This document shows, piece after piece, positions 2,701-23,799 of a stretch of DNA of 35,311 nucleotides. Numbering within the stretch: the first letter of the stretch is position 1; every line of letters begins with the position of its first letter. Source of the DNA: Methanothrix sp. (GTDB lineage: Archaea; Halobacteriota; Methanosarcinia; Methanotrichales; Methanotrichaceae); contig JAPKYA010000017.1 of assembly GCA_026394565.1 (NCBI GenBank), positions 1-35,311 of the forward strand. Direction: 5' to 3'. Position numbers and translations under genes: made by a program. The notes beneath the pieces were generated by a model. The model did not search any database. It worked only from the letters and a program-made list of their open reading frames with translations, and was not told the origin of the DNA.

Positions 2701-5700
2701 ATGAAACTCACCTGCATTGTTGGGAATTCGTATTTGCAGATTATCGCCAAGGCCTGCAAGCGCCTTGGATTCGACCTGCGGCTTTTTTCCGCTCAGCGTC
2801 TGGATGATCAGCCCGGCCTGCTGGAAGAAGCAATGAAGTCCATGGAACAATCAGACCTGATCTTCACGCATCGCGGCAGCGAGGCCCTTTGGGACGAGAT
2901 CGAGTCCAAGATGAGTGAGATCGGAAAGCGCACACCCACCGTATGCCTCGGCTATGATCAATCATACTGGCTGAACTCCACAGCTCCGGCAAAGGTTGTA
3001 GTCACTGCGAATGCCTACCTCACCTACGGAGGAGAGGATAACATCAGCAATATGCTCCTCTATCTTTGCCGGGAGCTGCTCCATATGGATGTGACCGCAA
3101 AGCCGCCCTCTCCCATGCCCTGGGAAGGAGCATACCATCCGGATGCACCCTGTCACTTCAATAATATCCAGGAGTATCTGAAGTGGTATGAGCCTGACGA
3201 AGGCCCGACGGTGGGATTGCTCTTCTCCCGGTTCTACTGGGTGAACAGAAACCTGACTGTGGAGGATGAGCTGATCCGGGCACTGGAAAGAGTTGGATTG
3301 AACGTCATCCCCGTGTTTTCTTATTCCGTAAAGGATGTGGATCTTGGCACCAGGAGCATGGCCGAAGTGGTTAGGGCCTACTTCTTCATGGGAGGCAAAC
3401 CTCGCATCGATGCCATGGTAAAGACGTCTCCCTTCTTCCTCGGACAGGACAGAAACAACATGGGCGAGTCAAAAGGAAATCAAACGGGCATTGCTCTTCT
3501 CAAAAAGCTAAACACACCGGTATTTGAGCCGGTTCTTTCCAATCACATGACTCTGGATGAGTGGGAAAACGGCATTGGACTGTCCAATGATATAGGTTGG
3601 GGCGTGGCCATGCCGGAGTTTGAAGGAATGATCGAGCCCATTATCATAAGCGCCGGTTCCAAGCGGGGTGATTATGAGGAGCGCACGCCTATTTTGGAGC
3701 GCTGCGAGAAGCTTGCAAAAAGAGTAAAGAATTGGATCGAATTGGCCGGGAAGCCGATAAGCGAACGCCGGGTAGCCTTCATCCTGCACAATAATCCCTG
3801 TGTCTCGGTGGAAGCGGCCGTAGGCGGCGGAGCGCATCTGGATACCATCGAAAGCGTGGCCCGCATTATGAATAAAATGGTCGCAGCAGGATACGCTCAA
3901 GAGAACACGCCGGCGACGGGCAAAGATCTCATCACCACCATCATGGACCGCAAGGCCGTCTCCGAGTTCCGTTGGACGCCCATCGAAGAGATTGTGGCCA
4001 AGGGCGGCGTGCTGGCCTATCAGACCAAAGAAGAGTACGAAAAATGGTTCAATACGCTCACACCTCTGGTAAAGGAGCGTGTCAGCGAGGCCTGGGGAAA
4101 CCCCCCAGGTGAACTGAAGAACGACATTCCTGCGGCCATGCTCTATCAGGGCAAGATTGTTATCACGGGCGTCCGGTACGGCAACACGGTAGTCTGCGTG
4201 CAGCCGAAACGGGGCTGTGCCGGAGCGCGCTGCGACGGCCAGGTCTGCAAGATCCTGCATGACCCGGATGTGCCGCCCACGCACCAGTACATGGCCACCT
4301 ACCGCTATCTGGAAGACATCTTCGGAGCGGATGTGCTCATTCATGTGGGCACGCACGGCAACGTGGAGTTCCTGCCCGGCAAAGGCGTGGGCCTTTCCAA
4401 AAACTGCTATCCGGATATCTGCATCGGCACCATTCCCCATCTTTACATCTATAATGCCGACAACCCGCCTGAGGGAACCATCGCCAAGCGGCGCAGCTAT
4501 GCCACGCTGGTGGACCACATGCAAACCGTGATGACCCAGTCCGGGCTTTACGATGAGCTGCTGGAGGTGGATCGGCTGCTGGGCGAGTATGAGACCGCCA
4601 AGCACGACCACGCCCGCTCCCATGAGCTGCGCCGTCTTCTCATCGACGCCATCAAGGCAGCAAACCTCGACAAAGGCATGAAGCTGACCGACGACATGCC
4701 TGTAGAAGAGATTGTGACCAAGGCCCACAATGAGCTGAGCCGGGTCAGGAATACGCAGATTGATTCCGGCATGCACATATTCGGCGAACTGCCGCTGGCC
4801 GAGAAGCGTGTCGAGTTCATCAACTCCATAATGCGGTTCGAGGGAAGCGGCGTGCCGCTTCGCAGCACCGTAGCGGCCATGATGGGCCTCTCCATGGAAG
4901 AGCTGCTGGCCGACCAGGGAGCCGTCAATGAGCGCCACGGCAAATCGCACGGGCAACTGCTGGAGACGATCGACGGGCTCTCTAAGAAACTCATAGACAT
5001 GTATCTGCAGGGAGATGGCAACGGAGCCCTACCGGAAGAGGTCCTTGGTTTTTCCGCAGCGGGTTATGAGAGCAAGCTAGAAGCTATTCGGGAGAAGGTC
5101 ATGGACCTGCAAACCCGGATGGAAGCCTCTTTGGAGATCGAGGCTTTGTTCAACGGCATGGACGGCGGCTACATCGAGGCGGGACCCAGCGGTCTCATCA
5201 CCCGCGGCCGGGATGATGTCCTGCCCACGGGAAGGAACTTCTACTCTCTGGACCCCTACCGCGTTCCCACGAAGACCGCCTGGAAGGTGGGACAGAAGCT
5301 GGGCGGGGCTGTTATCGCCAAGCACCAGAAGGAGGAGGGACGCTATCCCGAGAACATCGCGTTCTTCTGGATGTGCAACGACATCATGTGGGCGGACGGC
5401 GAGGATATGTCGCAAATGCTCTTCCTGCTCGGCACGGAGCCTGTCTGGCTGTCCAACGGACGGCTGAAGGGCTTCAAGGTTATCCCGCTGGAAGAGCTGG
5501 GCCGACCCAGGATCGATCTGACCGTTCGCGTCTCAGGCATCACCCGTGATAATTTCCCCAATTGCATCGACACCATCGACGAAGCGGTGCAGGCAGTTGC
5601 TGCGCTCGATGAGCCTCTGGAGATGAATTTTGTCCGCAAGCATACTCTGGCCAACCTGGAGAACGGCACGGCCAAAGACTGGCGCGATGCAACGCTGCGC

Positions 5701-6513
5701 ATCTTTGCCAGCAAGCCGGGCACCTACCAGTCGGGCACAAATCTGGCCGTCTACGCCAGCGCCTGGAAAGATGAGAAGGACCTCTCGGACATATTCATCT
5801 ACTGGAACGGCTATGCTTACGGCAAGGGCGTGGCCGGCAAGGAATCTCATCAGAATTTTGTGAACTCTCTCAAGTCGGTGGATGTCACCTACAACAAAGT
5901 GGTCAGCGACGAGTACGATCTCTTCGGATGCTGCTGCTACTTCGGCACACACGGAGGCATGACCGCGGCAGCCAGGCATCTCTCCGGCAGGGATGTGAAG
6001 GCTTACTACGGCGACACCAGGGAGCCGGAGCACGTCGAGGTGCGAGATCTGGCCGATGAGGTCCGGCGCGTTGTGCGCACCAAGCTGCTCAATCCCAAGT
6101 GGATAGAAGGCATGAAGCAGCACGGCTACAAGGGAGCAGGCGACATCTCCAAGCGCGTGGGAAGGGTCTACGGCTGGGAGGCCACCACGCAAGAGGTGGA
6201 CGACTGGATCTTCGACGACATCGCCAAGACCTTCATCATGGATGAGGAGAACCGCAAGTTCTTCGAGGAGAACAATCCCTGGGCCATGGAGGAGATGGGC
6301 CGAAGGCTCCTGGAGGCCGAGCAGAGGGGCCTGTGGAAGGCCGATCCCGAGGTGCTGGATGCTCTGAAGTCCCTTTACCTTGAGATTGAGGGTTGGATGG
6401 AGGAGAGGATGGGCGACGTGCAGGGCGAATTCCAGGGCGGAGCGATCGACGTTATCAACGCCGATGAGGTGGCAGCCTGGAAGGAGAAGATGGCCAAGGT
6501 GATCGGGGCGTAA
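2701..6513 (+). CDS. cobN: CobN/BchH-type metal chelatase large subunit
   Basis: A protein of 1270 residues, the usual length for CobN. It shows the CobN/Mg-chelatase family blocks: a cysteine-rich RGCAGARCDGQVC near residue 505, GTHGNVEFLPGKGVGLS near 550, the NADNPPEG region just after, and a C-terminal YFGTHGG near 1080. In cobaltochelatase or Mg-chelatase this subunit binds the tetrapyrrole and metal, while AAA+ I and D subunits supply ATP-driven motion. The ChlI-type gene at the left edge is the obvious partner. The ATG follows AAAAAGGAG. Methanogens normally insert cobalt or nickel with the small CbiX/CfbA enzyme, so a CobN-type enzyme suggests an additional tetrapyrrole step. The specific metal is not shown. 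A long antisense open frame on the other strand is a shadow. A relic of a second copy lies at 12976-13107. Confidence 0.93.
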   Translation: MKLTCIVGNSYLQIIAKACKRLGFDLRLFSAQRLDDQPGLLEEAMKSMEQSDLIFTHRGSEALWDEIESKMSEIGKRTPTVCLGYDQSYWLNSTAPAKVVVTANAYLTYGGEDNISNMLLYLCRELLHMDVTAKPPSPMPWEGAYHPDAPCHFNNIQEYLKWYEPDEGPTVGLLFSRFYWVNRNLTVEDELIRALERVGLNVIPVFSYSVKDVDLGTRSMAEVVRAYFFMGGKPRIDAMVKTSPFFLGQDRNNMGESKGNQTGIALLKKLNTPVFEPVLSNHMTLDEWENGIGLSNDIGWGVAMPEFEGMIEPIIISAGSKRGDYEERTPILERCEKLAKRVKNWIELAGKPISERRVAFILHNNPCVSVEAAVGGGAHLDTIESVARIMNKMVAAGYAQENTPATGKDLITTIMDRKAVSEFRWTPIEEIVAKGGVLAYQTKEEYEKWFNTLTPLVKERVSEAWGNPPGELKNDIPAAMLYQGKIVITGVRYGNTVVCVQPKRGCAGARCDGQVCKILHDPDVPPTHQYMATYRYLEDIFGADVLIHVGTHGNVEFLPGKGVGLSKNCYPDICIGTIPHLYIYNADNPPEGTIAKRRSYATLVDHMQTVMTQSGLYDELLEVDRLLGEYETAKHDHARSHELRRLLIDAIKAANLDKGMKLTDDMPVEEIVTKAHNELSRVRNTQIDSGMHIFGELPLAEKRVEFINSIMRFEGSGVPLRSTVAAMMGLSMEELLADQGAVNERHGKSHGQLLETIDGLSKKLIDMYLQGDGNGALPEEVLGFSAAGYESKLEAIREKVMDLQTRMEASLEIEALFNGMDGGYIEAGPSGLITRGRDDVLPTGRNFYSLDPYRVPTKTAWKVGQKLGGAVIAKHQKEEGRYPENIAFFWMCNDIMWADGEDMSQMLFLLGTEPVWLSNGRLKGFKVIPLEELGRPRIDLTVRVSGITRDNFPNCIDTIDEAVQAVAALDEPLEMNFVRKHTLANLENGTAKDWRDATLRIFASKPGTYQSGTNLAVYASAWKDEKDLSDIFIYWNGYAYGKGVAGKESHQNFVNSLKSVDVTYNKVVSDEYDLFGCCCYFGTHGGMTAAARHLSGRDVKAYYGDTREPEHVEVRDLADEVRRVVRTKLLNPKWIEGMKQHGYKGAGDISKRVGRVYGWEATTQEVDDWIFDDIAKTFIMDEENRKFFEENNPWAMEEMGRRLLEAEQRGLWKADPEVLDALKSLYLEIEGWMEERMGDVQGEFQGGAIDVINADEVAAWKEKMAKVIGA

Positions 6514-6775: not shown

Positions 6776-7108
6776 ATGCAAAGAACTATAAAGGCCGATG
6801 CCTCTTGCGGCTACGATGAGGACGATACAGCCCAGATAAAGGCATTGAGAGATAAGATCCTCAGCCGTCCTGAGCTGGCCAATATTACGGCCATTAAGAA
6901 CGGAGACGTCTACTGCTTTGCCACCGATATCTCAACCGGCCTTTCTTACTGGCTCGGCATTGTGTACATGGCCAAACAATTGCATCCCGATATCTTTTCA
7001 GACCTGGACCCCGTGGCGATTCATCAGGAGTATCTAACACGGTTCCAGAGGCTGGATTTCAATTTAAATGAGCATGGTGTATTCTTCTATCCTGCGGAGG
7101 CGGTGTAA
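6776..7108 (+). pseudogene. C-terminal remnant of a type-A binding protein
   Basis: The 110-residue reading frame matches only the last part of the type-A binding protein at 13243-14427. Both share the CGYDEDDTA block and the ending AIHQEYLTRFQ ... HGVF-YP. Signal peptide, calcium loop, N-lobe and most of the C-lobe are absent, so it cannot bind a ligand as a two-lobed protein. No ribosome site is evident before the ATG. It sits immediately before a type-B gene, exactly where an intact type-A gene sits in the other two pairs. Its 3' end contains the GGAGG that serves the TTG start of the type-B gene, which may be why this end was retained. Confidence 0.85.
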
Positions 7109-7109
7109 A

Positions 7110-8381
7110 TTGAGGTTGCTTTCAATTTTTATAATGATGATGCTCTTATCTTATGCATTGCCGGTTGCTTGTGCGTATGCTCCCGATTACACTCTGGAGA
7201 TCTTCGGCAACGCTAATATGGATGGTAACATAGATCAGAAAGATATTGACTATGTCGAGGGAGTAATCAATGGAATAAATCCCGCCACAAATCTCAGCGA
7301 TGCCAATTATGACGGCAAGATCGATACTCTCGATGTCTATCAAATCAAGAAGATCATGAATAGAAATGAGACAGAGCTTACTATCATCGATTCTCGTGAT
7401 AGAATAGTAACGGTTCAGATACCAGTGAAGCGAATAGCCGTACTAACCGGCTGGACACTTGAGGTGATGCGATCACTAAAACTGGAACGGGATAGAATAG
7501 TCGGCGTAGACCAATATGTGACAGGAGATAAAGATTGGAAGACGTTCTTCCCGGAGTTCAGCGACTATCCGAATTGCGGCTCTTCGTGGACTCCCAACTA
7601 TGAAGAAATATTGAAGTGCAATCCGGATGTTGTTTTTATCTCCACAAGTTCATCTGGGGATTGCGATACGATCCCAGATAGGCTTAAGGAACTGGACACA
7701 AGCATAAAAGTGATCAGATTCGATTCAACCGATCCATTGCACTACGCTGACGAGGCGAGAAAGCTAGGATACATCCTTGGAAAAGAAAATGATGCGGAGA
7801 AGTTTATAGATTATTACGATGGATTGGTGAATGAAATCACGGAGAAGATAAAAGAAATTCCTGAGGATAAGTGGCCTAAAGTTTACCTGGAATATTATAG
7901 CCCTTATACGACCTTTGGGGGAGGAACTGGCTCCTCTAACATAGTTGAGATGGCAGGAGGAAGAAACATCTTCAGCGATCTCTCAAATTATCCTGAGGTG
8001 GACCCAGAAGAGGTGATGACGCGCAATCCTGAGATAATCCTCAGAATGGCAGGATCGACAAAAGGGCAGGGAGGCTATGCTGTGGATAATACCACTGCAA
8101 TGAAAAACATCAGTGAAGAAATCATGAGCCGTCCAGAGCTGGCTACGGTTAGTGCCGTGGAAAATGACCGTGTCTATTTGAGCATCAATTATTTCTTTGG
8201 AGCAAGGCATTTCATAGGCATGGGTTACATGGCAAAATGGTTCTATCCGGACCTCTTCAATGAAATAGATCCAAAGGCAATCCACCAGGAATACCTGAAA
8301 AAATTCCAGGGCCTCGATCTTGACTTGGACAAACATGGTTCCTTCGTATATCATCCTAAAGAGAATCCAGAGGGAAAATAG
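7110..8381 (+). CDS. Type-B dockerin-like/periplasmic binding protein 1
   Basis: The product (423 residues) has a signal peptide (about residues 1-22), then two calcium-loop repeats typical of a type I dockerin: NANMDGNIDQKD (34-45) and DANYDGKIDTLD (64-75), each followed by a helix. From about residue 90 it is a BtuF/FepB-type binding protein (RDRIVTV...VKRIAVL). It ends with the block shared by all large binding proteins here (YMAKWFYPDLF...IHQEYLKKF). Its likely role is capture of a metal chelate or corrinoid outside the membrane for the FecCD-type transporter; the dockerin part could bind calcium and dock to a cohesin or simply stiffen the protein. The start is the TTG at 7110, nine bases after GGAGG (7096-7100); the longer open frame from 7068 overlaps the remnant upstream. 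Confidence 0.88.
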   Translation: MRLLSIFIMMMLLSYALPVACAYAPDYTLEIFGNANMDGNIDQKDIDYVEGVINGINPATNLSDANYDGKIDTLDVYQIKKIMNRNETELTIIDSRDRIVTVQIPVKRIAVLTGWTLEVMRSLKLERDRIVGVDQYVTGDKDWKTFFPEFSDYPNCGSSWTPNYEEILKCNPDVVFISTSSSGDCDTIPDRLKELDTSIKVIRFDSTDPLHYADEARKLGYILGKENDAEKFIDYYDGLVNEITEKIKEIPEDKWPKVYLEYYSPYTTFGGGTGSSNIVEMAGGRNIFSDLSNYPEVDPEEVMTRNPEIILRMAGSTKGQGGYAVDNTTAMKNISEEIMSRPELATVSAVENDRVYLSINYFFGARHFIGMGYMAKWFYPDLFNEIDPKAIHQEYLKKFQGLDLDLDKHGSFVYHPKENPEGK

Positions 8382-8424
8382 AAAGGCACGGCAGAAGCAA
8401 AGCTCAAGATAAGTCAAAAATTTT

Positions 8425-8449
8425 GGACGGCGGGCATCTTTCGCCGTCC
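8425..8449. terminator. Bidirectional terminator between binding protein B1 and nitrilase
   Basis: GGACGGCG (8425-8432) pairs perfectly with CGCCGTCC (8442-8449). On the minus strand the stem is followed by AAAATTTTT, so it can end the nitrilase transcript; on the plus strand it lies 43 bases after the binding protein stop codon. Confidence 0.6.
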
Positions 8450-8466
8450 GTCGCTTCTTGGCTCGC

Positions 8467-10266
8467 TCAGCTCTTGCCGCTCAGATTCAGCAGAACATTG
8501 TATTCCACGTTCTCGGAAAATCGTTTTTCACGAGAGTTTTTGGTTCCAAGCTGCATGATTTCGATCCAATCACCCTCTGCCGGAGATTCTGACTTCTTCC
8601 TCTTTTCGGGATACCTGGAATAGCTGCAAAGGAGGCTTCCCCCTAATGCATGAAGTCCACCGATATCACCCCATTGATTGGCAATAGCCAGATGCATCTG
8701 TTCAGCCAGCCTGGCCTCCCAAATAAACTTGCTCTTGCTATCTACCCAAAAAGCAGGTACGCAGAGAAGGTCTGTGCCGATTTTAGCCAGTGAATCAGAG
8801 CCTTCAGGAAACAACAAGTCGCAGCCTATCTGCATGCCAACTCGGCCAAATGGAAGATCAAAAGCAGGAAAACCAACGTCTCCTTCCCAGGCCCATCTAT
8901 TATCCCAGGAAGAAAGATGGACTTTTCTATATCTGCCTACTACGCCACCAGGGCCTACCAACACGCTGCTATTGTAAAATCTTGCGTCCTTCTTTTCTGC
9001 TATCCCGAAAACTATAAAGACATTCATCTCCTTGGCCTTTTGAGCCAGAATGTCCGTTGTGAGGCCCGGGATCACCTCACATAGCTTCATCGCTTCTTGT
9101 GGTCCGGAAACGTTTCCTGTCGTGGCCAGTTCTGGGAAGACGGCCAAGTTGAGCGTCGTTCCCATGGCAATGGCCATTTCTGCAGCTTTATCGATGAGCT
9201 TGAGCATTATTTCAATGTTAGACGCATGGTCCTGGCATGTGGATTGAAGTTGCAGAGTTGAAACGGCTAAATCAGCATTTTCCGGCAAACCAAGCAGCAT
9301 CTGTGTATTCAGATGAGAATAGGTATCAAGGGAGATGTTCCCATAAAAGCGAGGTCGCCTTCGGTTCAAGATATTTTCTGCAGGAGGCAAAATTTGCATA
9401 CCGCTTTGGATCGGCAGAGTGCTGTAAATAATAATGTCATCTAGTGAGCTGATTTGCTTGATTACCACTCCAAGGGGATCAATAATGAAGGATTCTGCCT
9501 TTCGACAGTCCATAGTTTTATCCTTTCCTGTTCGATTACAGGCCAGGACATATATGCCGTTTTCCGCTGCCCGGGCTCGCCAGAGCTTTTCCGGATTGTG
9601 ATTTTCAGGAGGCCAGTTGGCCGGAACGAGCAACAGGCTGGCCCCCCTTAAAGCGGCTACCCTTGCAGGCTTATATGAATAGGAATCTGCACATATTATT
9701 ACACCGAATCTGCCAAACTCGGTCTGTATTACCGGAACAGGAAGATTACCCTTTGCAGCCCATAGGTTTTCCTTGAAAGCCGGCGAAGTCTTGCGATATT
9801 TGCCAGCAACTTTCCCCATCGGTCCGATTACGGCTGTCGCATTGTAAAATATCCCCGTACACGGGTCCGTTTCCGGCAAGCCGATACATATATAGCATCC
9901 ATATCTTTCTGCAATTTTTCCGAAGGCCTCTGTCGTCGGACCGGGGATGATCTCCGTCAGTGGCCCAATGTCGGCTCTGTTTTCAAAGGAATAGCCGGTG
10001 GTTGCCATTTCAGTATTCAAGATGATTCGCGCCCCTGCACCGGCGGCATTCTCATTGAGGGCCAATAGATTGGCAAGGTTCTCCTCCTTATTCTTCCAGT
10101 GTATGCCAGCATGAATTAGTGCGATCTTTATTCCTTTGCCAGCAATCTCATATTCATCTTCTCTTAGCACGAAATCCGCCCTTATTGGTCTTTTATTAAA
10201 CTTTTTTCGCAAATGATTTATGCGTAAGATGTTAATAAAATTAATCCTCGTAATATTCAAACTCAA
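8467..10266 (-). CDS. Tandem double-domain carbon-nitrogen hydrolase (nitrilase superfamily)
   Basis: The 599-residue protein contains two complete nitrilase-superfamily domains in one chain. Domain 1 (about residues 46-285) has the triad Glu86 (NTEMATTG), Lys159 (KYRK) and Cys192 (IICADSY). Domain 2 (about 330-570) has Glu379 (FPELATTG), Lys448 (RYRKVHL) and Cys482 (QIGCDLLFPEG). Both should be active amidase- or nitrilase-type sites; the substrate is unknown. No signal peptide is evident, so it is probably cytoplasmic. The N-terminal 45 residues are poorly conserved-looking and lysine/arginine rich; the TTG at 10266 has no ribosome site, and a GTG at 10170 is a possible true start. It lies opposite to all its neighbours and interrupts the series of binding protein pairs. 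An amidase acting on tetrapyrrole side-chain amides is possible but only a guess. Confidence 0.85.
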   Translation of the reverse strand: MSLNITRINFINILRINHLRKKFNKRPIRADFVLREDEYEIAGKGIKIALIHAGIHWKNKEENLANLLALNENAAGAGARIILNTEMATTGYSFENRADIGPLTEIIPGPTTEAFGKIAERYGCYICIGLPETDPCTGIFYNATAVIGPMGKVAGKYRKTSPAFKENLWAAKGNLPVPVIQTEFGRFGVIICADSYSYKPARVAALRGASLLLVPANWPPENHNPEKLWRARAAENGIYVLACNRTGKDKTMDCRKAESFIIDPLGVVIKQISSLDDIIIYSTLPIQSGMQILPPAENILNRRRPRFYGNISLDTYSHLNTQMLLGLPENADLAVSTLQLQSTCQDHASNIEIMLKLIDKAAEMAIAMGTTLNLAVFPELATTGNVSGPQEAMKLCEVIPGLTTDILAQKAKEMNVFIVFGIAEKKDARFYNSSVLVGPGGVVGRYRKVHLSSWDNRWAWEGDVGFPAFDLPFGRVGMQIGCDLLFPEGSDSLAKIGTDLLCVPAFWVDSKSKFIWEARLAEQMHLAIANQWGDIGGLHALGGSLLCSYSRYPEKRKKSESPAEGDWIEIMQLGTKNSREKRFSENVEYNVLLNLSGKS

Positions 10267-10549
10267 TATTTAAAATTTTTTATTATTGAATAATAATTTA
10301 ACAATGACTGCTACTAAGCGATAGCGGAGTCTTGCCCAATTCAAAATTATATATAATATTTATATAAAATCGCCTCTCAGAATGAACTGCGTAATTTAAA
10401 ATCTATTAAAATATATATAGATAATATCTTATTTTTCATGATTCTTTGAAACTTTAGCCGAAATAGTTATAAATGCATGTTACGAATACATATCTAATCA
10501 TACGATATGATCAATTGATATGATTTTAAAAAAAAGTTGTAGGTGAGTT
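10267..10549. promoter_or_regulatory. Divergent AT-rich control region before binding protein A2
   Basis: No gene is seen in these 283 bases. For the rightward gene, GAAATAGTTATAAATG (10460-10475) is a good BRE/TATA match, followed by a perfect inverted repeat TCATA-CGA-TATGA (10498-10510) within the predicted leader and a second TATGA at 10520-10524; GGTGAG lies just before the ATG at 10550. The palindrome position would suit a repressor. A TATA-like TTTTAAATATT on the minus strand near 10267-10277 may serve the nitrilase. Confidence 0.5.
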
Positions 10550-11713
10550 ATGAGACGCTATCGTGGAATCGCTTTAGTCATTCTGGTTGTCCTCGCAACA
10601 GCCTCCATCGTATGGGGAACGGTGCCAGGAGATCAGAACGGAGATAATATAATCTCCCAATCAGAGCTGTTAAATGCTGAAAATCTCTCAAAAGATGCAA
10701 AGATCACTGAGGATCAGTTGGAGGAGATCAGGCATATACGCGAAGCTTATCCAAGGACACTTGTAGACGCCATTAACAGAACGATAATGATTTATAAGCC
10801 GGTGAAAAGAATCGTCGTCCTTGGCGCTTTTACACCTGAAGCGATGCGTATACTGAATGCCTCCGATAAAATAGTTGGCGTGGATACAAGCATTGCGGCA
10901 TTGACGGATCTTTATCCTGAAGCCGGCAAACTGCCAACTGTCGGCAAGTGGAATGAGCCGGACATAGAGGCAATAATTAAGCTTGAGCCCGACACTGTTC
11001 TCACCTATGGGGGAACTCCCAGTCAGGATGTTGAAGAAAAGCTCAAAGCCTCAAATATTCAGATGCTTCGACTCAATTTCTATTCGGAGATAGCTCCGCA
11101 ATCTTTGGAGAAACTAGGCTACGCCCTGGAAAAAGAGAAAGAGGCCAAGGAGTATATCGACTTCGTGAATAAATACCTGGATATCATCAAGTCCCGAACG
11201 GAAAAACTTTCCGATGCAGAAAAACCCAAGGTATTCGTTGAATCCTGGAAGCCCTACTATACCCAGACAATCGGAGACTCCGTCGATCTTGCCTGCCGCT
11301 GTGCCGGCGGCAGCAATATTGCCGTGAACTTTGAGGGAAGACAACTGGATCCAGAGTGGGTGATTGAGCAAAACCCGGACATCATTTTAAAGTATGTCTC
11401 TTCAGAAAACGCTGGTTATTCAATCACCAATTCCTCTAAGCTGGCTGCCATTAGAGATGAGATCCTCAATCGCAAGGAATTAGCTACGGTTGCGGCAGTG
11501 GAGAACAAGAATGTGCATCTCTTCTGTACAGAGCTCATGTATTTGAGAGGATTTGTCGGCACTATTTATTTTGCCAAGTGGTTCCACCCGGATCTCTTTG
11601 AGGATCTAGATGTACAAGCCATCCATCAGGAATATATGACCAAATTCATGGGTCCTGATTACGATCTGAAGGAACATGGAATATTCGTCTTCCCACCACA
11701 AGAGGTGAGCTGA
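10550..11713 (+). CDS. Type-A EF-hand/periplasmic binding protein 2
   Basis: The product (387 residues) has a signal peptide (about 1-24) followed by a short calcium-loop module. One good EF-hand/dockerin-like loop, DQNGDNIISQSE (28-39), is followed by a degenerate second half (ITEDQLEEIRHI, about 52-63). A BtuF/FepB-type binding protein then begins with the YPRTLVDAINRTI block near 68. Its C-terminus carries the shared YFAKWFHPDLFEDLD ... IHQEYMTKF ending. It should bind the chelate substrate outside the membrane. Its stop codon abuts the ATG of the type-B gene (TGA then ATG with no gap), so the two are co-translated and may act as a pair. It differs from type B by having one calcium loop instead of two. 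Ligand unknown. Confidence 0.87.
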   Translation: MRRYRGIALVILVVLATASIVWGTVPGDQNGDNIISQSELLNAENLSKDAKITEDQLEEIRHIREAYPRTLVDAINRTIMIYKPVKRIVVLGAFTPEAMRILNASDKIVGVDTSIAALTDLYPEAGKLPTVGKWNEPDIEAIIKLEPDTVLTYGGTPSQDVEEKLKASNIQMLRLNFYSEIAPQSLEKLGYALEKEKEAKEYIDFVNKYLDIIKSRTEKLSDAEKPKVFVESWKPYYTQTIGDSVDLACRCAGGSNIAVNFEGRQLDPEWVIEQNPDIILKYVSSENAGYSITNSSKLAAIRDEILNRKELATVAAVENKNVHLFCTELMYLRGFVGTIYFAKWFHPDLFEDLDVQAIHQEYMTKFMGPDYDLKEHGIFVFPPQEVS

Positions 11714-12970
11714 ATGAGAATTACCTTTTTTGTGCTGATGCTTTTGGCATTATCCGCCTTTGCGGAGGTCATGCCAGCAGCATCATCCGATTATGCTTTA
11801 GGCATCTTCGGCAACGCCAATATGGATGATAGAATTGATGAGCTGGATATTGCCTATGTCGAAGGGATAATCAAAGGAGCAAATGCACCCACCAATCTCA
11901 GCGATGCCAATTACGATGGCCTGATAGATGCCCAGGACACCGATCAAATCCAGAAGATCATGGATGGAAGCGAGAGCGAGATCACCATTGTCGATGCACG
12001 AAAGAGAAATGTGACCTTAAATGTTCCCATTCAAAAGGCCGTTGCCGTCAATACCGGAGCATTGGAGATCATACGAGCCATCGGAGTAAATGTAGATGAT
12101 GTCTTTGTGGGTGTCAGCTCCTATGCCATTGCCAACGGCTTGTACTGGCCGGAATTGAAGGATCAGGTGAGCATCGCATACGGAAGCCCTGATTATGAGC
12201 AGCTTGCCCAGCTCAAGCCGGACCTGGTCATATTATATAAAAACCCTAAAAAGGATGAATCCTTCGATAAATACCAGGCCATAGGCGTTCCCGTGATATG
12301 CATGGATTGCTTTAATCAAGAAGAAATGGACGGAAGCATTAAAATATTTGGAGAATTATTCAATAGAAGAGCCGAGGCTAACGGCTTGATTGAATGGTAT
12401 CATGGATATGTGGATCTCGTTGAGGAGAGAACCCGTGGCCTTTCTGCATCGGATAGACCCAGGACTCTATTCTACAACTATCCTGAATCCAATTATCCCC
12501 TCTTGAAGGCCAGCAATAGCCTGAGCGGAGAGAACACCATGATTGTTAAAGCGGGAGGAATTAACATTGCCGAGAATCTGAACAGCTCCTCAGGGGTAGC
12601 AGAAGCGGAATGGGAGTGGCTGATGTCTGAGAACCCGGACATAATCGTAAGCAATGTCGTTGCCGCAGAAACAAAGTCTGGGTACAGTGCCAATGATACT
12701 GCTCTTGATTTTATGAAGAAGATCAGAGATACGCTCCTAAACGATTCTGCCATCAATTCCACTGCAGCCGGCAAGAACGGACGGATTTTCATAATCTGCA
12801 CAGATCTTAATCGCGGTCCCATGCAGGCAGCCGGTACGGTATTTATGGCTAAGCTCCTCCATCCGGAGCTGTTCGAAGATCTCGATCCTCAGAGCATATT
12901 GAAGGAGTATTATGAGAAGTGGCAGAGAATACCCTATCATGGTATCTACGTCTATCCGAACCAGGAGTGA
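11714..12970 (+). CDS. Type-B dockerin-like/periplasmic binding protein 2
   Basis: The protein (418 residues) has a signal peptide (about 1-24), two dockerin-type calcium loops NANMDDRIDELD (34-45) and DANYDGLIDAQD (64-75), then a BtuF/FepB-type fold. It has diverged more than the other type-B copies: the segment after residue 95 (RKRNVTLNVPIQKAVAVNTG) and the ending (MAKLLHPELFEDLD ... GIYVYPNQE) are recognisable but altered. GAGGTGAG just before the ATG, inside the end of the type-A gene, is the ribosome site, so translation is coupled. Its 3' end holds GGAGTGAG, which once served the cobN relic that follows five bases later. Function as for the other binding proteins; ligand unknown. Confidence 0.87.
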   Translation: MRITFFVLMLLALSAFAEVMPAASSDYALGIFGNANMDDRIDELDIAYVEGIIKGANAPTNLSDANYDGLIDAQDTDQIQKIMDGSESEITIVDARKRNVTLNVPIQKAVAVNTGALEIIRAIGVNVDDVFVGVSSYAIANGLYWPELKDQVSIAYGSPDYEQLAQLKPDLVILYKNPKKDESFDKYQAIGVPVICMDCFNQEEMDGSIKIFGELFNRRAEANGLIEWYHGYVDLVEERTRGLSASDRPRTLFYNYPESNYPLLKASNSLSGENTMIVKAGGINIAENLNSSSGVAEAEWEWLMSENPDIIVSNVVAAETKSGYSANDTALDFMKKIRDTLLNDSAINSTAAGKNGRIFIICTDLNRGPMQAAGTVFMAKLLHPELFEDLDPQSILKEYYEKWQRIPYHGIYVYPNQE

Positions 12971-12975
12971 GTTTC

Positions 12976-13107
12976 ATGAAGATCACATGCATTACGCCGA
13001 ACCAGAGGTGTTGGATGCTCTGAAGCCGCTCTTATCTGGAGATTGAGGGATGGATTGAGGAGAGAATGGGCGATGTCGAAGGCGAGTTCTAGGACAAAGC
13101 GATCTAC
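12976..13107 (+). pseudogene. Relic of a second cobN gene (start joined to end)
   Basis: The ATG at 12976 opens with MKITCI, matching the MKLTCI start of the intact CobN and preceded by GGAGTGAG. From about 12996 the DNA matches the last ~37 codons of cobN (intact copy 6340-6451): it encodes AEPEVLDALK, then after a one-base insertion GWIEERMGDVEGEF, then a stop TAG. The two parts are out of frame with each other. Roughly 1,200 codons between them are gone. This shows that a second cobN lay between binding protein pairs 2 and 3. Confidence 0.85.
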
Positions 13108-13147
13108 ATAAAAAATATATTTTTTTAGATAAATATTAGGAATTGCA

Positions 13148-13189
13148 GAGATAGTTATAAGTACTGAATATGATATCTGATTTTATCAT
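13148..13189 (+). promoter_or_regulatory. Predicted promoter and operator of binding protein A3
   Basis: GAGATAGTTATAAG (13148-13161) matches the TATA region of binding protein A2. Downstream ATGATA (13170-13175) and TATCAT (13184-13189) form an inverted repeat in the predicted leader, and ATATCTGAT aligns with ATATCTAAT of the A2 leader. Shared ancestry of the two leaders is likely. Confidence 0.45.
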
Positions 13190-13242
13190 ATTAGGATATG
13201 AATTTGTATGAGCATAATATACAATCGAGAGGTAGTAATAGC

Positions 13243-14427
13243 ATGAAAGTGAATTTGAAGATAGGCATGATCGTTCTGATTCTCCTGGCGGCGTCACCAC
13301 ATGCATGGGGTGCTGTGCCGGGGGACTTGAACGGGGACAATATCGTTTCCCAGGAGGAGCTACTGATTGCCGAAAATCTGGCAAACATGGGAAATATAAC
13401 CGCGGATCAGTTAGAAGAGATTCAGCATATTCACGATGACTATCCGAGGACATTTATCGATAACAGTGGCAAATCAATTACGATCAACAAGCCCATTCGA
13501 AAAATTATTTTGTTGAATGCAGACTGCGCAGAGGTATTTCGCTGCCTTGGAATCAAGAATATTATTGGTGTAGATTCATATATTGCAAAAGATAGCATAT
13601 TTTTTCCAGAACTCTCTAAACTGACTGAAGTAGGATCGTCATTCCATCCGGACTGTGAAGCTATACTGACTCTAGATCCAGATATTGTAATTGCATATAC
13701 AGGGGTAAAAGAAGAGGATCTAGATGATAAAATAGAAGCAGCCGATATACCTATTGCTCGCTTTTCTGCATGCAAAGTCCCAACTAGAGACGATCAGTTG
13801 AGAACGCTGGGTTACATTTTTAATGAAGAGGACAAAGCCGAAGAACTAGTCAAATTCTATCACAACATCACAGATCCCATAATCAGCACTTTGAAAAATG
13901 CTTCAAGTGCGAAGAAGTCAAAAGTATATATTGAATGTTATTCTGACTTCAAAGCTCGCAATGGTCGCTCTGGCACTCAAGAAATGTGCGCAATGGCAGG
14001 CGGAATGAATATTGCCGAGGATTTGGACCTATCTGGACAGGGAACAACATCTCAAGTCGATCCTGAATGGATAGTCGCACAGAACCCCGACATAATAATC
14101 AAGGTAGTATCTGGCAGCGAAGTTTCTTGTGGCTATGATGAAGATGATACTGCCGAAATGATGTCCTTAAGAGATGCCATCATGAATCGTCCCGGCTTCG
14201 ATAACATTACTGCTGTCAAAGAGAACAGAGTATATTTGATTACCCCAGATATCTGTGATAGATCGTGCAATGTCATTGGTGTTGCCTACATGGCAAAATG
14301 GTTCCATCCGGATCTCTTCAAGGATCTGGACCCACAGGCAATACATCAGGAGTACTTAACAAGGTTCCAAGGACTGGATTATGATCTGAGCAAGCACGGT
14401 GTATTTGTTTATCCGGAGGAGAGCTGA
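13243..14427 (+). CDS. Type-A EF-hand/periplasmic binding protein 3
   Basis: The product (394 residues) has a signal peptide (about 1-24), a calcium loop DLNGDNIVSQEE (28-39) with a degenerate second half, and a BtuF/FepB-type binding fold from about residue 68. The C-terminal part (CGYDEDDTAEM ... YMAKWFHPDLFKDLDPQAIHQEYLTRFQGLDYDL) is the closest relative of the remnant at 6776-7108. The ATG at 13243 is preferred because GAGAGG lies at 13227-13232; the open frame from 13198 extends into the leader and has no ribosome site. The TGA stop abuts the ATG of the next gene. Base composition is more AT-rich than in the CobN gene. Role: extracytoplasmic capture of the transporter substrate; ligand unknown. 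Confidence 0.88.
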   Translation: MKVNLKIGMIVLILLAASPHAWGAVPGDLNGDNIVSQEELLIAENLANMGNITADQLEEIQHIHDDYPRTFIDNSGKSITINKPIRKIILLNADCAEVFRCLGIKNIIGVDSYIAKDSIFFPELSKLTEVGSSFHPDCEAILTLDPDIVIAYTGVKEEDLDDKIEAADIPIARFSACKVPTRDDQLRTLGYIFNEEDKAEELVKFYHNITDPIISTLKNASSAKKSKVYIECYSDFKARNGRSGTQEMCAMAGGMNIAEDLDLSGQGTTSQVDPEWIVAQNPDIIIKVVSGSEVSCGYDEDDTAEMMSLRDAIMNRPGFDNITAVKENRVYLITPDICDRSCNVIGVAYMAKWFHPDLFKDLDPQAIHQEYLTRFQGLDYDLSKHGVFVYPEES

Positions 14428-15660
14428 ATGAAAAAATCAATTCTATGCATACTGATGGCCTTCATATCTTCGGCAATGATCATCATGCCTACGGTTGCAT
14501 CATCGAGTTTCACCCTGAACATCTTCGGCAATGCTAATATGGATGATACCATAGATCAGGCAGATATCAATTATGTTGAAGGTGTGATAAAGGGCAGCAA
14601 TGAGCCTTCCAATCTTTCCGATGCCAATTACGATGGAACGGTGGATCAAAAGGATATTGAGCAGATAAAGCAGATTATCCAGAGCGATGAAAAGACGCTG
14701 ACCCTCATCGACACCGCCAACAGAACTGTAACCTTAAAAATGCCCATCAAGAAGATAGTAGCTGTAACTGGCGATGCTGCTGAGGCCATTAGGGTTTTGC
14801 ATGCCACAGATAAGGTTGTAGGTGTGTCGGTTGATACGCTGGATGACGCCACCTACTTACCGGATTTCAGCAAAATGCCAAGTGTTGGAAAGTGGAGTGA
14901 GCCGGACATAGAGAGGATCCTCACCCTGGAGCCGGATCTGGCCATAAGCTACAAGTCTGCCGCCTCCAAGTACCTCGAGCCAAAGCTCAACGGCACAGGC
15001 ATCCCTATTGTAGCCCTTGATCTGTACAGGGGAGACGATCTGCCTGCGGAAATGAAAATGCTCGGATTTATCGTCGGCAAAACGGATGATGCAGACAAGT
15101 ACCTGAAATTCTTCTACAATATCACAGATGCTATTCAGGCAAAGACCTCAAAGTTGCCCACAGATAAAAAAGCAAGAGTCTACCTGGAAGGATATGCAGA
15201 CCTTAAAACGTACACCAAGGGCAAAGGCGGAGACTTGGCCTGCACTATGGCAGGTGGTATTAATATCGCCTCTAATTTGGAAGGAGCATATCCTGAGGTA
15301 GAGTCAGAGTGGGTCATGATACAAAATCCGGAGGTTATTGTGAGGCTCACATCACCATCGGAGATTGCATGCGGCTATGCGACCGATGATTCAATGGGAT
15401 TTGCATCCAAGAGAAAGGAGATTCTGGCCAGAACCGGCTGGAGCAATATTACAGCAGTGAAAGATGAACGGGTGTACATGCTGCTCTATGAGTTTGGAGC
15501 AAGCCCCGCGGTTCCCGTGACCATCGCCTACATGGCCAAGTGGTTCTATCCGGAGCTCTTCCCTGAATTGGATCCTAAGGCGTTGCATCAGCAATATCTG
15601 GACATGCAGGGCTTTGATTACGATTTGAATACCCTTGGCGTGTTCGCATATCCTTCTTAA
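14428..15660 (+). CDS. Type-B dockerin-like/periplasmic binding protein 3
   Basis: The product (410 residues) has a signal peptide (about 1-25), dockerin-type loops NANMDDTIDQAD (35-46) and DANYDGTVDQKD (65-76), and a BtuF/FepB-type binding fold whose first strand is RTVTLKMPIKKIVAVTG. The ending AYMAKWFYPELFPELDPKALHQQYL belongs to the shared C-terminal block. It is co-translated with the type-A gene directly upstream (no gap; the GGAGGAG of the previous gene end is the ribosome site). This is the last member of an intact A-B pair and is followed by a terminator. Confidence 0.88.
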   Translation: MKKSILCILMAFISSAMIIMPTVASSSFTLNIFGNANMDDTIDQADINYVEGVIKGSNEPSNLSDANYDGTVDQKDIEQIKQIIQSDEKTLTLIDTANRTVTLKMPIKKIVAVTGDAAEAIRVLHATDKVVGVSVDTLDDATYLPDFSKMPSVGKWSEPDIERILTLEPDLAISYKSAASKYLEPKLNGTGIPIVALDLYRGDDLPAEMKMLGFIVGKTDDADKYLKFFYNITDAIQAKTSKLPTDKKARVYLEGYADLKTYTKGKGGDLACTMAGGINIASNLEGAYPEVESEWVMIQNPEVIVRLTSPSEIACGYATDDSMGFASKRKEILARTGWSNITAVKDERVYMLLYEFGASPAVPVTIAYMAKWFYPELFPELDPKALHQQYLDMQGFDYDLNTLGVFAYPS

Positions 15661-15676
15661 GCCTACGAAGGATATG
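15647..15676 (+). terminator. Terminator hairpin overlapping the stop codon of binding protein B3
   Basis: CATATCCTTC (15647-15656) pairs perfectly with GAAGGATATG (15667-15676) over ten base pairs. The loop contains the TAA stop and the stem is followed by TTTATATTTTTAATTT. Confidence 0.6.
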
Positions 15677-15730
15677 TTTATATTTTTAATTTATATATTA
15701 CTACCAAACGAAAGGCCAGGATTGCAGTAG

Positions 15731-16684
15731 TTGCATGAATTGACGATGCTAGATATCCTCCAGGAAGCGCTGAATACGACTGTGTCCACCATGACGATCG
15801 TATTCCTGATGCTCTTTCTAACAGGCATAATGATGGAGATGGGTTTATTTCATCGAATCTCATTCATTGCCAGGCCTCTGGCTTCAATATCACGCTTGCC
15901 TGCCATTTCAGCCTCCACCTTTGTGATCAGCCTTGGCTCAGTCCTCGCCGCCAATACCATGACTGCCAGGCTAAAAGAAGAAGGACATTTGACAGAGCGG
16001 CAGGCTTTTCTCAGTGCTTTGATGAATACCGTTCCCGTCTATTTCCGGGAGATGTTCACATATCAACTGGCCGTTGTGATTCCCGTTTTAGGCCTTTTTG
16101 TGGGCGGAGCATATGCGATCATATTTTCCGCAACGGGGATCATAAAGCTGCTAATTGTCATGATCTTTGGCAGAAAATATTTAGTTGAAGATCCAATAGC
16201 CATTGAAGGGACGATCAAGTTTCCATCCAAGAAGAACATTTTTCAGGCAGCAAAAGGATCATTGGTTGGTGAGATCCCTATTTTTCTCAGAATGGCCGGC
16301 ATTTTCTTCATAATGACCTTCTCAATTCTCTATCTGAATGAAATGGGCTTTCTTGCATCCTTGGATGTAATTCCCCTGGCTCATTTCTTCCAGGTTCCTC
16401 CGGAGACAATAATTCCGCTGATGGTATTCGTAGCCAGCCCCAAGGCAGGCATGTCCCTTCTCGGCCCCATGATCCAAAGCGGCAGCCTTTCGGAGGCTAA
16501 GGCCCTGATTGTCTTGATGCTGGGGAGCATGTTCATGCTTCCGTTTATAGCCCTTAGATCACAGATACCAAATTATGCTTCGGTGTTCGGCATGCACATG
16601 GGAGTCTCACTGGTGGCAATCTCCACGGTCATCAGTATCATAGTGAGGCTGACGGCATTGTGCCTGCTGATGATGATGACATGA
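15731..16684 (+). CDS. Membrane protein with nucleoside-recognition ('gate') domains
   Basis: The protein (317 residues) is strongly hydrophobic with about eight membrane segments. Blocks such as GIMMEMGLFHRISFIARPL, SLGSVLAANTMTARLKEEG and the second-half GEIPIFLRMAGIFFI are typical of the nucleoside-recognition/gate domain family, also found in the transport part of FeoB and in spore maturation proteins SpmA/B. The two halves look like a repeat in which each half has a helix-rich gate. Function in archaea is not established; its place among metal-chelate binding proteins suggests a metal or chelate membrane step, which is inference. The start is uncertain: TTG 15731 follows AGG by ten bases; ATG 15746 is the first ATG in frame. 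Confidence 0.7.
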   Translation: MHELTMLDILQEALNTTVSTMTIVFLMLFLTGIMMEMGLFHRISFIARPLASISRLPAISASTFVISLGSVLAANTMTARLKEEGHLTERQAFLSALMNTVPVYFREMFTYQLAVVIPVLGLFVGGAYAIIFSATGIIKLLIVMIFGRKYLVEDPIAIEGTIKFPSKKNIFQAAKGSLVGEIPIFLRMAGIFFIMTFSILYLNEMGFLASLDVIPLAHFFQVPPETIIPLMVFVASPKAGMSLLGPMIQSGSLSEAKALIVLMLGSMFMLPFIALRSQIPNYASVFGMHMGVSLVAISTVISIIVRLTALCLLMMMT

Positions 16685-16748
16685 TAGTCCTCAGCCGTCG
16701 GTTGCTGTCAAGCATCAAACAATTATTCTCATGTCAATCAATAAATTT

Positions 16749-16815
16749 AGGATATAGTTTTAAGCATTAAATTAAGATAGCTTGTTAAATCATACCTTAG
16801 TTTAATATAGTATGA
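16749..16815 (+). promoter_or_regulatory. Predicted promoter of binding protein B4 with flanking TCATAC/GTATGA hexamers
   Basis: TTTAATATAG (16801-16810) lies about 26 bases before the ATG at 16832, which would give an almost leaderless transcript; no ribosome site precedes this ATG. TCATAC (16790-16795) and GTATGA (16810-16815) form an inverted repeat around the box. An additional GATATAGTTTTAAG at 16750-16763 resembles the type-A gene promoters. Confidence 0.4.
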
Positions 16816-16831
16816 AAAATGATGTTATGAT

Positions 16832-18082
16832 ATGAGAGTAATAACCCTTGGTTTAATAGTCCTGGCAAGCGTTTTGCTATATGCAGCTCCTGCCGCAGCA
16901 GATTTCACGCTGGACATATTCGGCAACGCCAATATGGACGATACCATAAATGCAGACGACATAGCCTACCTGCAAGGAATAATCAATGGAATGAACAAGG
17001 AGACCGAACTGTCTGATGCCAATTACGACGGCAAGATCGACCAGCTGGATCTAGCTCAAATCGAAGAGATCATTCGGGGGGAAGAGAAAAATCTCACCAT
17101 AATCCAATACATCAAGCCCTCGTCCGCTCCAGAGATGGCAAGAACTCCTGTGAAAGTTCCCTTGCCGATAGAGAGCATCGCAGCTTTAAGCGGCACCTAT
17201 GGGCCTGAGATGCTCTGTGTTCTGGGGGACGCGGATAAAATCGTTGCAGTCACAAATACCGCAGCTAACCGCGGCGAGATCAGGGATATGATTAAGGACA
17301 AACCCGGCGTCGGAGCTACCTTCGAATGGGATTTGGAAAAGGTACTGCAGATTCATCCTGATGTCGTTTTGGGCTATGCATCTTACGACTATTCCGAGCA
17401 GAGAAAGACCCTGGAGGCTGCTGGCATCACCCTGATCCAGATGAATTTCAACAGACCTGAGGTTTATGCTGGCGAAGCGAGAAATATCGGGTGGCTGCTT
17501 GGCAAGAGAGACCGAGTTGAAGAGCTGATCGACTTTGAAGAGAAGTACATCGATCTCATTGAGGGGAGGGTGAAAGGATTAAATGACGGCGAGAAACCCC
17601 GCGTTTATGCAGAGAGCTATAAGGATTTGCAGTACAGTGCAGGATCAACATCGGTCACTGCTGCGATAAAGCCATGCGGCGGAATCAACATCTTTGAGGA
17701 GCTGAACGGCTCTAATAATGAGATAGATCCAGAACAGGTCATAAGCGACAATCCGCAGGTCATCCTAAAGATGACGTCTCATAATGATATGCCTAACAGC
17801 GGCTACGATGCTGGGAATACAACCCAGATGGCAGCCAAAGTCAAAGAAATGGAAAACCGCACTGGATGGAGCAAGATCGATGCTGTCAAGGACGAACGGG
17901 TCTATATCATCACCAGCGATCTTGCATCAATACACCCGAGCATATTCAACCTCTATATTGCCAAGTGGCTGCATCCTGAGTTGTTCAAGGATATAGACCC
18001 TGTAGAAATCCAGAGGGAATGGCTGCAGAAGTTCCTTGGAATTGAGTTCAAGGGCGTATTCGGCTATCCATTGCTGGATTAG
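16832..18082 (+). CDS. Type-B dockerin-like/periplasmic binding protein 4 (unpaired)
   Basis: The product (416 residues) has a signal peptide (about 1-23), dockerin-type loops NANMDDTINADD (32-43) and DANYDGKIDQLD (62-73), then a BtuF/FepB-type binding fold. It differs from the other type-B proteins by an insertion around residues 95-105 (IKPSSAPEMARTPVKVP) before the first strand, and it lacks the QEYL form of the C-terminal block (EIQREWLQKF instead). It has no type-A partner; the upstream gene encodes the gate-domain membrane protein. A clear terminator follows. Probably it binds a related but different ligand; this is inference. Confidence 0.87.
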   Translation: MRVITLGLIVLASVLLYAAPAAADFTLDIFGNANMDDTINADDIAYLQGIINGMNKETELSDANYDGKIDQLDLAQIEEIIRGEEKNLTIIQYIKPSSAPEMARTPVKVPLPIESIAALSGTYGPEMLCVLGDADKIVAVTNTAANRGEIRDMIKDKPGVGATFEWDLEKVLQIHPDVVLGYASYDYSEQRKTLEAAGITLIQMNFNRPEVYAGEARNIGWLLGKRDRVEELIDFEEKYIDLIEGRVKGLNDGEKPRVYAESYKDLQYSAGSTSVTAAIKPCGGINIFEELNGSNNEIDPEQVISDNPQVILKMTSHNDMPNSGYDAGNTTQMAAKVKEMENRTGWSKIDAVKDERVYIITSDLASIHPSIFNLYIAKWLHPELFKDIDPVEIQREWLQKFLGIEFKGVFGYPLLD

Positions 18083-18296: not shown

Positions 18297-18332
18297 AATC
18301 AATCGCGGAATATTTATACCACAGGAGAGTTC

Positions 18333-19435: not shown

Positions 19436-19437
19436 TT

Positions 19438-21596: not shown

Positions 21597-22526
21597 ATGA
21601 GGAACTTGATCTTGAAGTCGATGATATTATCTCTGGTCGTGTTGCTGTTTTTCTGCTCTGTAACCTTGGCCGAAGAAAACACGACAAGTGCGGTGACTGT
21701 TACGGACGATCTCGGGCGGGCGGTCAGCGTGGCCGAAACCCCGGCGAGAATAGTCTCGCTCTCTCCTTCCAACACGGAGATCCTCTTTGCTCTCGGCCTG
21801 GGGGATCGAGTGGTTGGGGCGACGAAGTACTGCAATTATCCTCCTCTGATGAAGGAACAAAAGGACAGCGGAAAGATCGAGGTTGTGGGTGGGTACGCTG
21901 ATCCGGATATAGAGAGGATTCTCACTTTGCATCCCGATCTGGTCCTGGCCGGCCAGAAGCACAGCAACGGGGCAGTCCCCCTGCTGGACAAAGAGGGCAT
22001 TGCCACATTTGTCGTCTATCCGAATAACCTATCGAGCATCATTCTATCCATAGAAAAAATCGGCAAGATCACGGGAAAGGAGGCGGAGGCATCCGAACTT
22101 GGCAGTCGGATGGAGGCCCGAATAAGAACAGCATCGGATAAAGTATCATCCCTTCCTAAAACGCGGGTCCTTTACATCGTCTGGCACGATCCGGTTCGGA
22201 CTGCAGGTGCGGGAACCTTCGAGGACGAGATCATCGAGAAGGCAGGGGGTATGAACATATTCCACGATCTTTCGGGATATGCTCAGGTAGATCCTGAAGC
22301 CATAGCTGTGCGAAATCCCGAGGTGATCATAGCCTGCTCAGGCATGGGAACCGGGGCGGACAAGCCCCTCCAATGGGCGGAAACGGAACGCGGCTTGAAT
22401 CAGACCGATGCCCGCAAGAATGCTCGGATCTATCAGGCAGAAGGAGATCTCATAACCCGCACCGGTCCCAGGATCGTAGATGGCCTGGAGATGTTTGCAA
22501 AATTTATCCATCCTGAGGCATTCTGA
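21597..22526 (+). CDS. BtuF-like substrate-binding protein without calcium loops
   Basis: The product (309 residues) has a signal peptide (about 1-25) and a binding protein of the BtuF type: TVTDDLGRAVSVAETPARIVSLSPSNTE, ALGLGDRVVGATKYCNYPP, and GGYADPDIERILTLHPDLVL. Unlike the five large binding proteins upstream it has neither a dockerin nor an EF-hand module, nor the AKWFHP...HQEYL ending. It is followed directly by permease 2 and ATPase 2, so it completes a standard class II importer. The motif pattern is close to cobalamin-binding BtuF, but haem or siderophore cannot be excluded. The ATG at 21597 has little ribosome site; a TATA-like box about 30 bases upstream suggests a near-leaderless transcript. 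Confidence 0.9.
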   Translation: MRNLILKSMILSLVVLLFFCSVTLAEENTTSAVTVTDDLGRAVSVAETPARIVSLSPSNTEILFALGLGDRVVGATKYCNYPPLMKEQKDSGKIEVVGGYADPDIERILTLHPDLVLAGQKHSNGAVPLLDKEGIATFVVYPNNLSSIILSIEKIGKITGKEAEASELGSRMEARIRTASDKVSSLPKTRVLYIVWHDPVRTAGAGTFEDEIIEKAGGMNIFHDLSGYAQVDPEAIAVRNPEVIIACSGMGTGADKPLQWAETERGLNQTDARKNARIYQAEGDLITRTGPRIVDGLEMFAKFIHPEAF

Positions 22527-22536
22527 GGCATTGGTA

Positions 22537-23646: not shown

Positions 23647-23721
23647 AAGAGCAGAAGAGGAGCGCCCCGACCGTAAGCCGCACAATTCCAGGGCGGCCAA
23701 TGGCAGATTGGCCAGGGCACA

Positions 23722-23799
23722 TCATTTCACTTTGGAGAGTGAGCGCAGCAAGAGCGATACGGTAAAGGAGGCCTTTGCATAATTTGCCCACATTCTGGA
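23722..23799 (+). repeat. 78-base direct repeat, copy 2
   Basis: The partner of 21371-21448 (71 of 78 bases identical). It lies in the 368-base gap between permease 2 and ATPase 2. The remainder of this gap (23800-24014) is AT-rich, contains CTAATAGTATTAAG (23829-23842, the reverse complement of a TTAATACTA-type element) and ends with AGGAGG before the ATPase start; I see no gene in it. Confidence 0.75.

Follow-up and report, generated by a model that had tools for sequence, protein, structure and literature searches.

N-terminal dockerin-like modules on binding proteins of Methanothrix ABC importers as possible calcium-dependent docking elements

How could an archaeon without an outer membrane retain at its surface dozens of uptake receptors that lack a tether? 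The question is raised by a locus of Methanothrix, one of Earth's main methane producers, in which binding proteins of ATP-binding cassette (ABC) importers are fused to modules resembling dockerins. The window analyzed here is a stretch of 35,311 nucleotides corresponding to contig C7 of a 2.29-Mb Methanothrix metagenome-assembled genome (MAG), which is 79% complete. Its closest named relative is PtaU1.Bin112 (88% protein identity), and the named relatives are Methanosaeta/Methanothrix MAGs. Positions 7068-18082 encode six PF01497 binding proteins (B1-B4, A1, and A2). Our preferred answer, to which we give about an even chance (roughly 0.5), is that the modules dock to a non-canonical partner on the cell surface in a calcium-dependent manner. 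If true, this would explain how such receptors are retained, and the comparison presented below provides named partners to test. The six proteins and their modules are as follows.

7068..8381, forward strand: binding protein B1, consisting of a signal peptide, the module, and a Peripla_BP_2 domain (PF01497, E=7.4e-30); a TTG at 7110 is also a possible start
7197..7370, forward strand: dockerin-fold module of B1, with loops at 7209-7244 (NANMDGNIDQKD) and 7299-7334 (DANYDGKIDTLD)
10550..11713, forward strand: binding protein A1; a single EF-hand loop lies at 10631-10666 (DQNGDNIISQSE), the second half is shortened (KDAKITEDQLEEI), and the gene abuts B2
11714..12970, forward strand: binding protein B2, with a module at 11801-11974 and loops at 11813-11848 and 11903-11938
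13198..14427, forward strand: binding protein A2; a single EF-hand loop lies at 13324-13359 (DLNGDNIVSQEE), and the gene abuts B3
14428..15660, forward strand: binding protein B3, with a module at 14518-14691 and loops at 14530-14565 and 14620-14655; modeled with AlphaFold2
16832..18082, forward strand: binding protein B4, with a module at 16913-17086 and loops at 16925-16960 and 17015-17050; highest Dockerin_1 score

B-type proteins carry a predicted dockerin-fold domain

Straight after the signal peptide, B1-B4 each display two 12-residue loops, NANMDxxI[DN]xxD and DANYDGx[IV]DxxD, at a spacing of exactly 30 residues, and A1 and A2 each have a single loop (D[QL]NGDNI[IV]SQ[SE]E). This distribution, four two-loop and two one-loop proteins, had been proposed by a first-pass annotation of the DNA and was confirmed. 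In composition shuffles of the same proteins, two loops at a spacing of 30 residues arise in 8e-5 of cases and one loop alone in 5.7%, so the claim for the A-type proteins rests on conservation in relatives. B-type modules follow the dockerin ligand rule in both loops, with Asp/Asn at positions 1, 3, 5, and 9 and Asp/Glu at position 12. The A-type proteins lack the two calcium loops of a type I dockerin: a canonical EF-hand loop is present only once, and their second half is shortened.

Profile searches point in the same direction. Using hmmscan, the four B modules score 14.5-21.9 bits against Pfam Dockerin_1 (PF00404, cut-off 22.9), and with genome-wide E-values two of the four pass the cut-off, as do many relatives. 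When a profile of 30 modules was searched against the PDB, dockerins accounted for five of the six matches (CelS 1daq/2mte, 4fl4_A, 5lxv_B, and 6kg9). Matches of the module to HlyD_3 fell under the cut-off of that family and were set aside. Structure prediction, which the first-pass annotation had put forward as a check, yielded for B3 an AlphaFold2 model (68-sequence alignment) with a mean predicted local distance difference test (pLDDT) of 94.1 and a predicted TM-score (pTM) of 0.89. Within the module, where pLDDT reaches 97-98, helices 44-55 and 74-84 follow loops 35-46 and 65-76, giving a loop-helix, loop-helix arrangement with no entering helix. An A-type model shows one loop-helix and then a second, shorter helix unit. 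Both sequence and model thus indicate that the B-type module is a true dockerin-fold domain, with two predicted calcium loops each followed by a helix, and the conservation of the calcium ligands suggests that the modules bind calcium.

Compared with type I dockerins (PF00404; C. thermocellum CelS, 1daq/2mte), the Methanothrix module shares two Asp/Asn-rich 12-residue calcium loops with their helices, an internal twofold repeat, and a Gly at position 6 of loop 2. It differs in that the loop spacing is fixed at 30, position 1 of loop 1 is Asn, and position 10 is Glu rather than a hydroxyl or hydrophobic contact residue. Moreover, it is N-terminal and fused to a transport receptor, in a genome in which no canonical cohesin was detected.

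In the receptor body, all six proteins score 73-104 bits against PF01497 (cut-off 27.5). Foldseek searches run on whole models, whose matches reflect the body and not the module, returned YiuA and FepB as top matches, and the models have the two lobes and helical backbone of this fold. The closest solved folds are siderophore binding proteins of the YiuA/FepB type (PDB 9if3, 6b2y, and 4mo9; TM-score ∼0.8 by target length, ∼21-29% identity), which, however, have no dockerin module.

The module is better conserved than the body and widespread in archaea

Among 117 distinct modules centered on Methanotrichaceae, there are no indels and hardly any variation at ligand positions 1, 3, 5, 9, and 12 of either loop, although these modules were picked by a loose loop pattern with a spacing of 30, a selection that favors loop positions. 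Positions that are neither ligands nor selected are conserved too (the preceding Gly, Y15, I20, G22, T27, Q45, and I49). In the same set, mean pairwise identity is 58% for the module and 32% for the body, the module being ahead in 98.5% of pairs.

The fusion had been described in the first-pass annotation as unusual, which did not hold, since 54 of the 393 genomes sampled in the phylum carry it and cases are already known in anaerobic methanotrophic archaea (ANME). Named matches come from Methanothrix, Methanosarcina, ANME-1, Bathyarchaeota, Methanomassiliicoccales, and one Nitrososphaeria MAG. These relatives were found by an alignment-based search; a search with B1 alone found none. Three Methanotrichaceae genomes have 43, 32, and 23 copies of the module, 43 being the maximum per genome in the family. 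In one Methanothrix genome, an 834-residue open frame (L075:14285-16786, forward strand) contains two dockerin-binding-protein units in tandem. Methanothrix-type proteins were also seen on two contigs filed under a Bacteroidales MAG (L099 and L104), probably as a result of binning contamination.

Dockerins have been tabulated for archaeal genomes that lack cohesins, to our knowledge without any function being assigned. For example, Table 2 of Timmers et al. 2017 (PMC5244752) credits M. concilii GP6 with 17 dockerin domains and no cohesin domain. The dockerin-bearing ABC binding proteins described in ANME, of the NikA/OppA and TroA types (Chadwick et al. 2022, PMC9012536), embody the same idea with the same kind of module. 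ANME, however, have cohesins, even multi-cohesin scaffoldin-like proteins, whereas none is detectable in Methanothrix, and the contact positions differ. No published discussion of the Methanothrix case was found in our literature search. What is new here is the fusion beside a PGF-CTERM cohesin gene in Methanosarcina and an ANME-1-like family, forms with their own helix elsewhere, and neither in Methanothrix.

Three arrangements of binding proteins with respect to tether and cohesin

Across archaea the pattern is clear: a binding protein with the module has its own tether, or is encoded with an anchored cohesin, or, in Methanothrix, has neither. The second arrangement is found in Methanosarcina (G379, G409, and G421) and in the f10 family, which is ANME-1-like by content and has fusion homologues of both OppA-like and BtuF-like kinds. 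In both, a cohesin gene adjoins the fusion gene, and the adjoining cohesins carry a signal peptide and a PGF-CTERM-like tail (L201, L215, L217, L227, L214, L193/L219, and L202). In these archaea, the partner is probably this PGF-CTERM-anchored cohesin encoded next door. In three Methanosarcina loci (L201, L215, and L227), the stop and start codons of the cohesin/dockerin-binding-protein gene pair overlap. This pair is ready for experiments in a genetically tractable archaeon.

A tether of the protein's own is seen in Methanomassiliicoccales/Thermoplasmata, Bathyarchaeota, Nitrososphaeria, and one Methanosarcina type. By simple hydrophobicity analysis, these proteins begin with an N-terminal helix that is not cleaved off, followed by a hydrophilic stalk (13-84 residues in the listed examples) and then the module. 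No cohesin was found in the searched genomes of the first three groups (G431-G433, G435, and G436).

Methanothrix proteins fit neither arrangement. In 72 relatives, a median of only 7 residues separates the hydrophobic signal region, which has signal-peptidase-like endings, from the module. There is no C-terminal anchor on the binding proteins of the window. In this they differ from the PGF-CTERM-anchored ABC binding protein (NCBIfam TIGR04281), an archaeal receptor of the same PF01497 family and the same need for surface attachment, which carries its own C-terminal anchor. As the first-pass annotation had stated, no cohesin is encoded in the window, and the PF00963 search extended this to the organism's own genome at its 79% completeness. 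Clustering of the neighbors of Methanothrix arrays revealed no small anchored protein that could replace a cohesin.

The module thus occupies the free N terminus of secreted binding proteins lacking any other anchor. We propose that, by gripping a single surface partner in a calcium-dependent manner, it would keep a large group of paralogous binding proteins in the envelope; receptors of many ligand specificities would then use one common plug. The partner would not be a canonical cohesin; in part of the family, a cohesin-like domain at the C terminus of an S-layer protein is a candidate. A fuller version, which we put forward tentatively and as somewhat less than evenly probable, is that Methanothrix has repurposed docking into a form that is cohesin-independent, or that relies on a cryptic S-layer-borne cohesin. 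With one calcium plug in common, dozens of ABC receptors for different ligands would then be exchangeable on a common socket in the envelope, under the sheath, and would serve to scavenge cofactors or metals.

An S-layer protein has a cryptic cohesin-like domain

The candidate was reached via sub-threshold PF00963 matches, among which it is the only recurring one. It is a protein of ∼970 residues with two PF07752 S-layer domains, a cohesin-like C-terminal domain, and a hydrophobic tail ending with Arg.

L264:3190-6102, contig C28, reverse strand: S-layer-family protein of the organism's own genome (homologues L297-L323)

The C-terminal domain is present once in 27 of 46 genomes of the family, including the organism's own. 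In hhalign comparisons with archaeal cohesins it reached a probability of 90%, with only rough single-comparison E-values, whereas a CARDB decoy gave 9% against the cohesins and 0.3% against the S-layer domain. Cohesins were also four of its top five PDB profile matches, although these are weak (E 0.006-0.22). The full S-layer proteins have no PF00963 match at E≤1, sub-threshold matches being restricted to single relatives. Several other weak PF00963 matches in Methanotrichaceae are Ig domains of the CARDB or DUF11 type and were rejected as cohesins, and the sole match above the cut-off lies in a genome without modules (G032).

These features would allow classic cohesin-dockerin docking as a special case of the preferred reading, in which the modules bind this cryptic domain and the binding proteins sit in the S-layer under the sheath. 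The candidate occurs in six of the seven good genomes with at least 10 modules (Fisher p=0.20). Its domain nevertheless stays below the Pfam threshold and is also found in dockerin-free genomes, and the contact residues of the modules are unlike those of their cohesin-linked relatives. We consider this special case unlikely, and regard the domain as a candidate partner in part of the family, a lead suggested by profile similarity and not an answer.

Several observations weigh against docking

In cellulosomal type I dockerins, loop positions 10 and 11 are the main cohesin contacts. Position 10 is hydrophobic in both loops in 9 of 11 cohesin-linked archaeal modules, but in only 1 of 159 Methanotrichaceae modules (Fisher p=2e-12, not corrected for relatedness and with a small first group, n=11) and in none of 33 tethered forms. 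In Methanotrichaceae, this position is Glu in 114/162 and 92/162 modules for the two loops, respectively. A conserved Glu at a position not needed for calcium suggests, at the level of sequence, a conserved contact face. If the Methanothrix modules dock, the position 10 difference implies that their socket should differ as well.

This difference is one of several findings that count against docking. No PF00963 cohesin above the cut-off was detected in any dockerin-bearing Methanotrichaceae genome searched, with one weak sub-threshold match. An alignment of archaeal cohesins linked to substrate-binding proteins gave no match at E≤1 across 46 genomes, in a search that had no positive control of its own (with the same tool, PF00963 detected cohesins in 16 of 35 genomes). 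The S-layer domain does not co-occur overall with the modules, since 33 good genomes have both (11), the domain alone (8), the modules alone (11), or neither (3) (Fisher p=0.28). Dockerin-bearing binding proteins are also encoded by a genome presumed to be that of M. thermophila PT, in 1.6 of whose 1.88 Mb neither the S-layer candidate nor any other cohesin-like protein was found. Finally, membrane-tethered homologues keep the module though they need no docking. The suggestion made in the first-pass annotation, docking to a cohesin in the S-layer or sheath, is therefore sustained only in part. It gains from the adjacent cohesins of relatives and from the cryptic S-layer domain in the organism's own genome, whereas the lack of a canonical cohesin in the dockerin-bearing genomes of the family, the lack of co-occurrence, and the contact positions speak against it.

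Because the module persists on tethered homologues whose genomes lack cohesins, a purely structural role of calcium must also be considered. The module could be a calcium-stabilized N-terminal part of the receptor, acting as a stalk, a spacer, or a clamp on the binding domain, with no docking in Methanothrix and with cohesin docking derived in Methanosarcina and ANME. This would account for the tethered proteins of Methanomassiliicoccales/Thermoplasmata, Bathyarchaeota, and Nitrososphaeria, and for contact positions in Methanothrix that resemble those of tethered rather than cohesin-paired forms. In addition, the pTM of the whole B3 model, read without its predicted aligned error, suggests that the module may be fixed on the body. 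Yet Methanothrix lost the tether and still kept the module, better conserved than the body, type-A proteins manage with half of it, and Methanosarcina encodes the same module directly beside an anchored cohesin. We regard this structural role as the main rival of docking, though less likely than not.

Genomic setting of the binding-protein array

The remaining features of the window are the following.

538-2520: a second transporter set, with an internally shortened ATPase
2701..6513, forward strand: CobN-like chelatase large subunit, a recurrent neighbor of these binding-protein arrays
21597..22526, forward strand: ordinary BtuF-like binding protein beside permease 2, which offers a comparison without module in the same cluster
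22480..24803, forward strand: BtuC-type permease (22480-23646) and BtuD-type ATPase (24015-24803), likely the membrane part of the importer

Two pairs of A-type and B-type genes adjoin directly, with no base between A1 and B2 (10550-12970) or between A2 and B3 (13198-15660). Together with the many binding proteins per genome, this would be expected if the modules recognized a permease, a cap domain of a sheath protein, or each other, thereby clustering receptors on a shared transporter. Methanothrix sheath proteins do have Ig-like and carbohydrate-binding cap domains (PMC11576556). We judge a partner of this kind improbable. The A-then-B gene order is also seen in loci L091 and L101.

Methanothrix arrays recurrently lie near genes for CobN-like chelatase, BtuCD-type transporters, and nitrogenase-like proteins, and near one for a membrane protein (314-317 residues) with no Pfam match. 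In the window, the latter is encoded at 15731-16684, and it has relatives in eight array loci across Methanotrichaceae (e.g. L091:8671-9612). The CobN-like chelatase, the NifH/D/K-like genes (18294-21326), and the B12/siderophore-type transport genes form a grouping that recurs in Methanothrix loci and may represent an uncharacterized tetrapyrrole or metal-cofactor pathway. Because relatives of CobN include the heme dechelatase HmuS (PMC12583661), scavenging of tetrapyrroles or metal chelates is a reasonable guess for the ligands of the binding proteins.

Parts of the window may be degraded. The first transporter set along the window looks partly decayed: the ABC ATPase at 1855-2520 lacks ∼40 residues relative to the copy at 24015-24803, and a 110-residue C-terminal fragment of a binding protein (6776-7108) overlaps the start of B1. 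Two genes similar to nitrogenase component 1 (PF00148; 18294-20586) both look interrupted, with a frameshift near 18941 in the first and an in-frame TAG (20179-20181) in the second; they may be pseudogenes, sequencing errors, or true splits.
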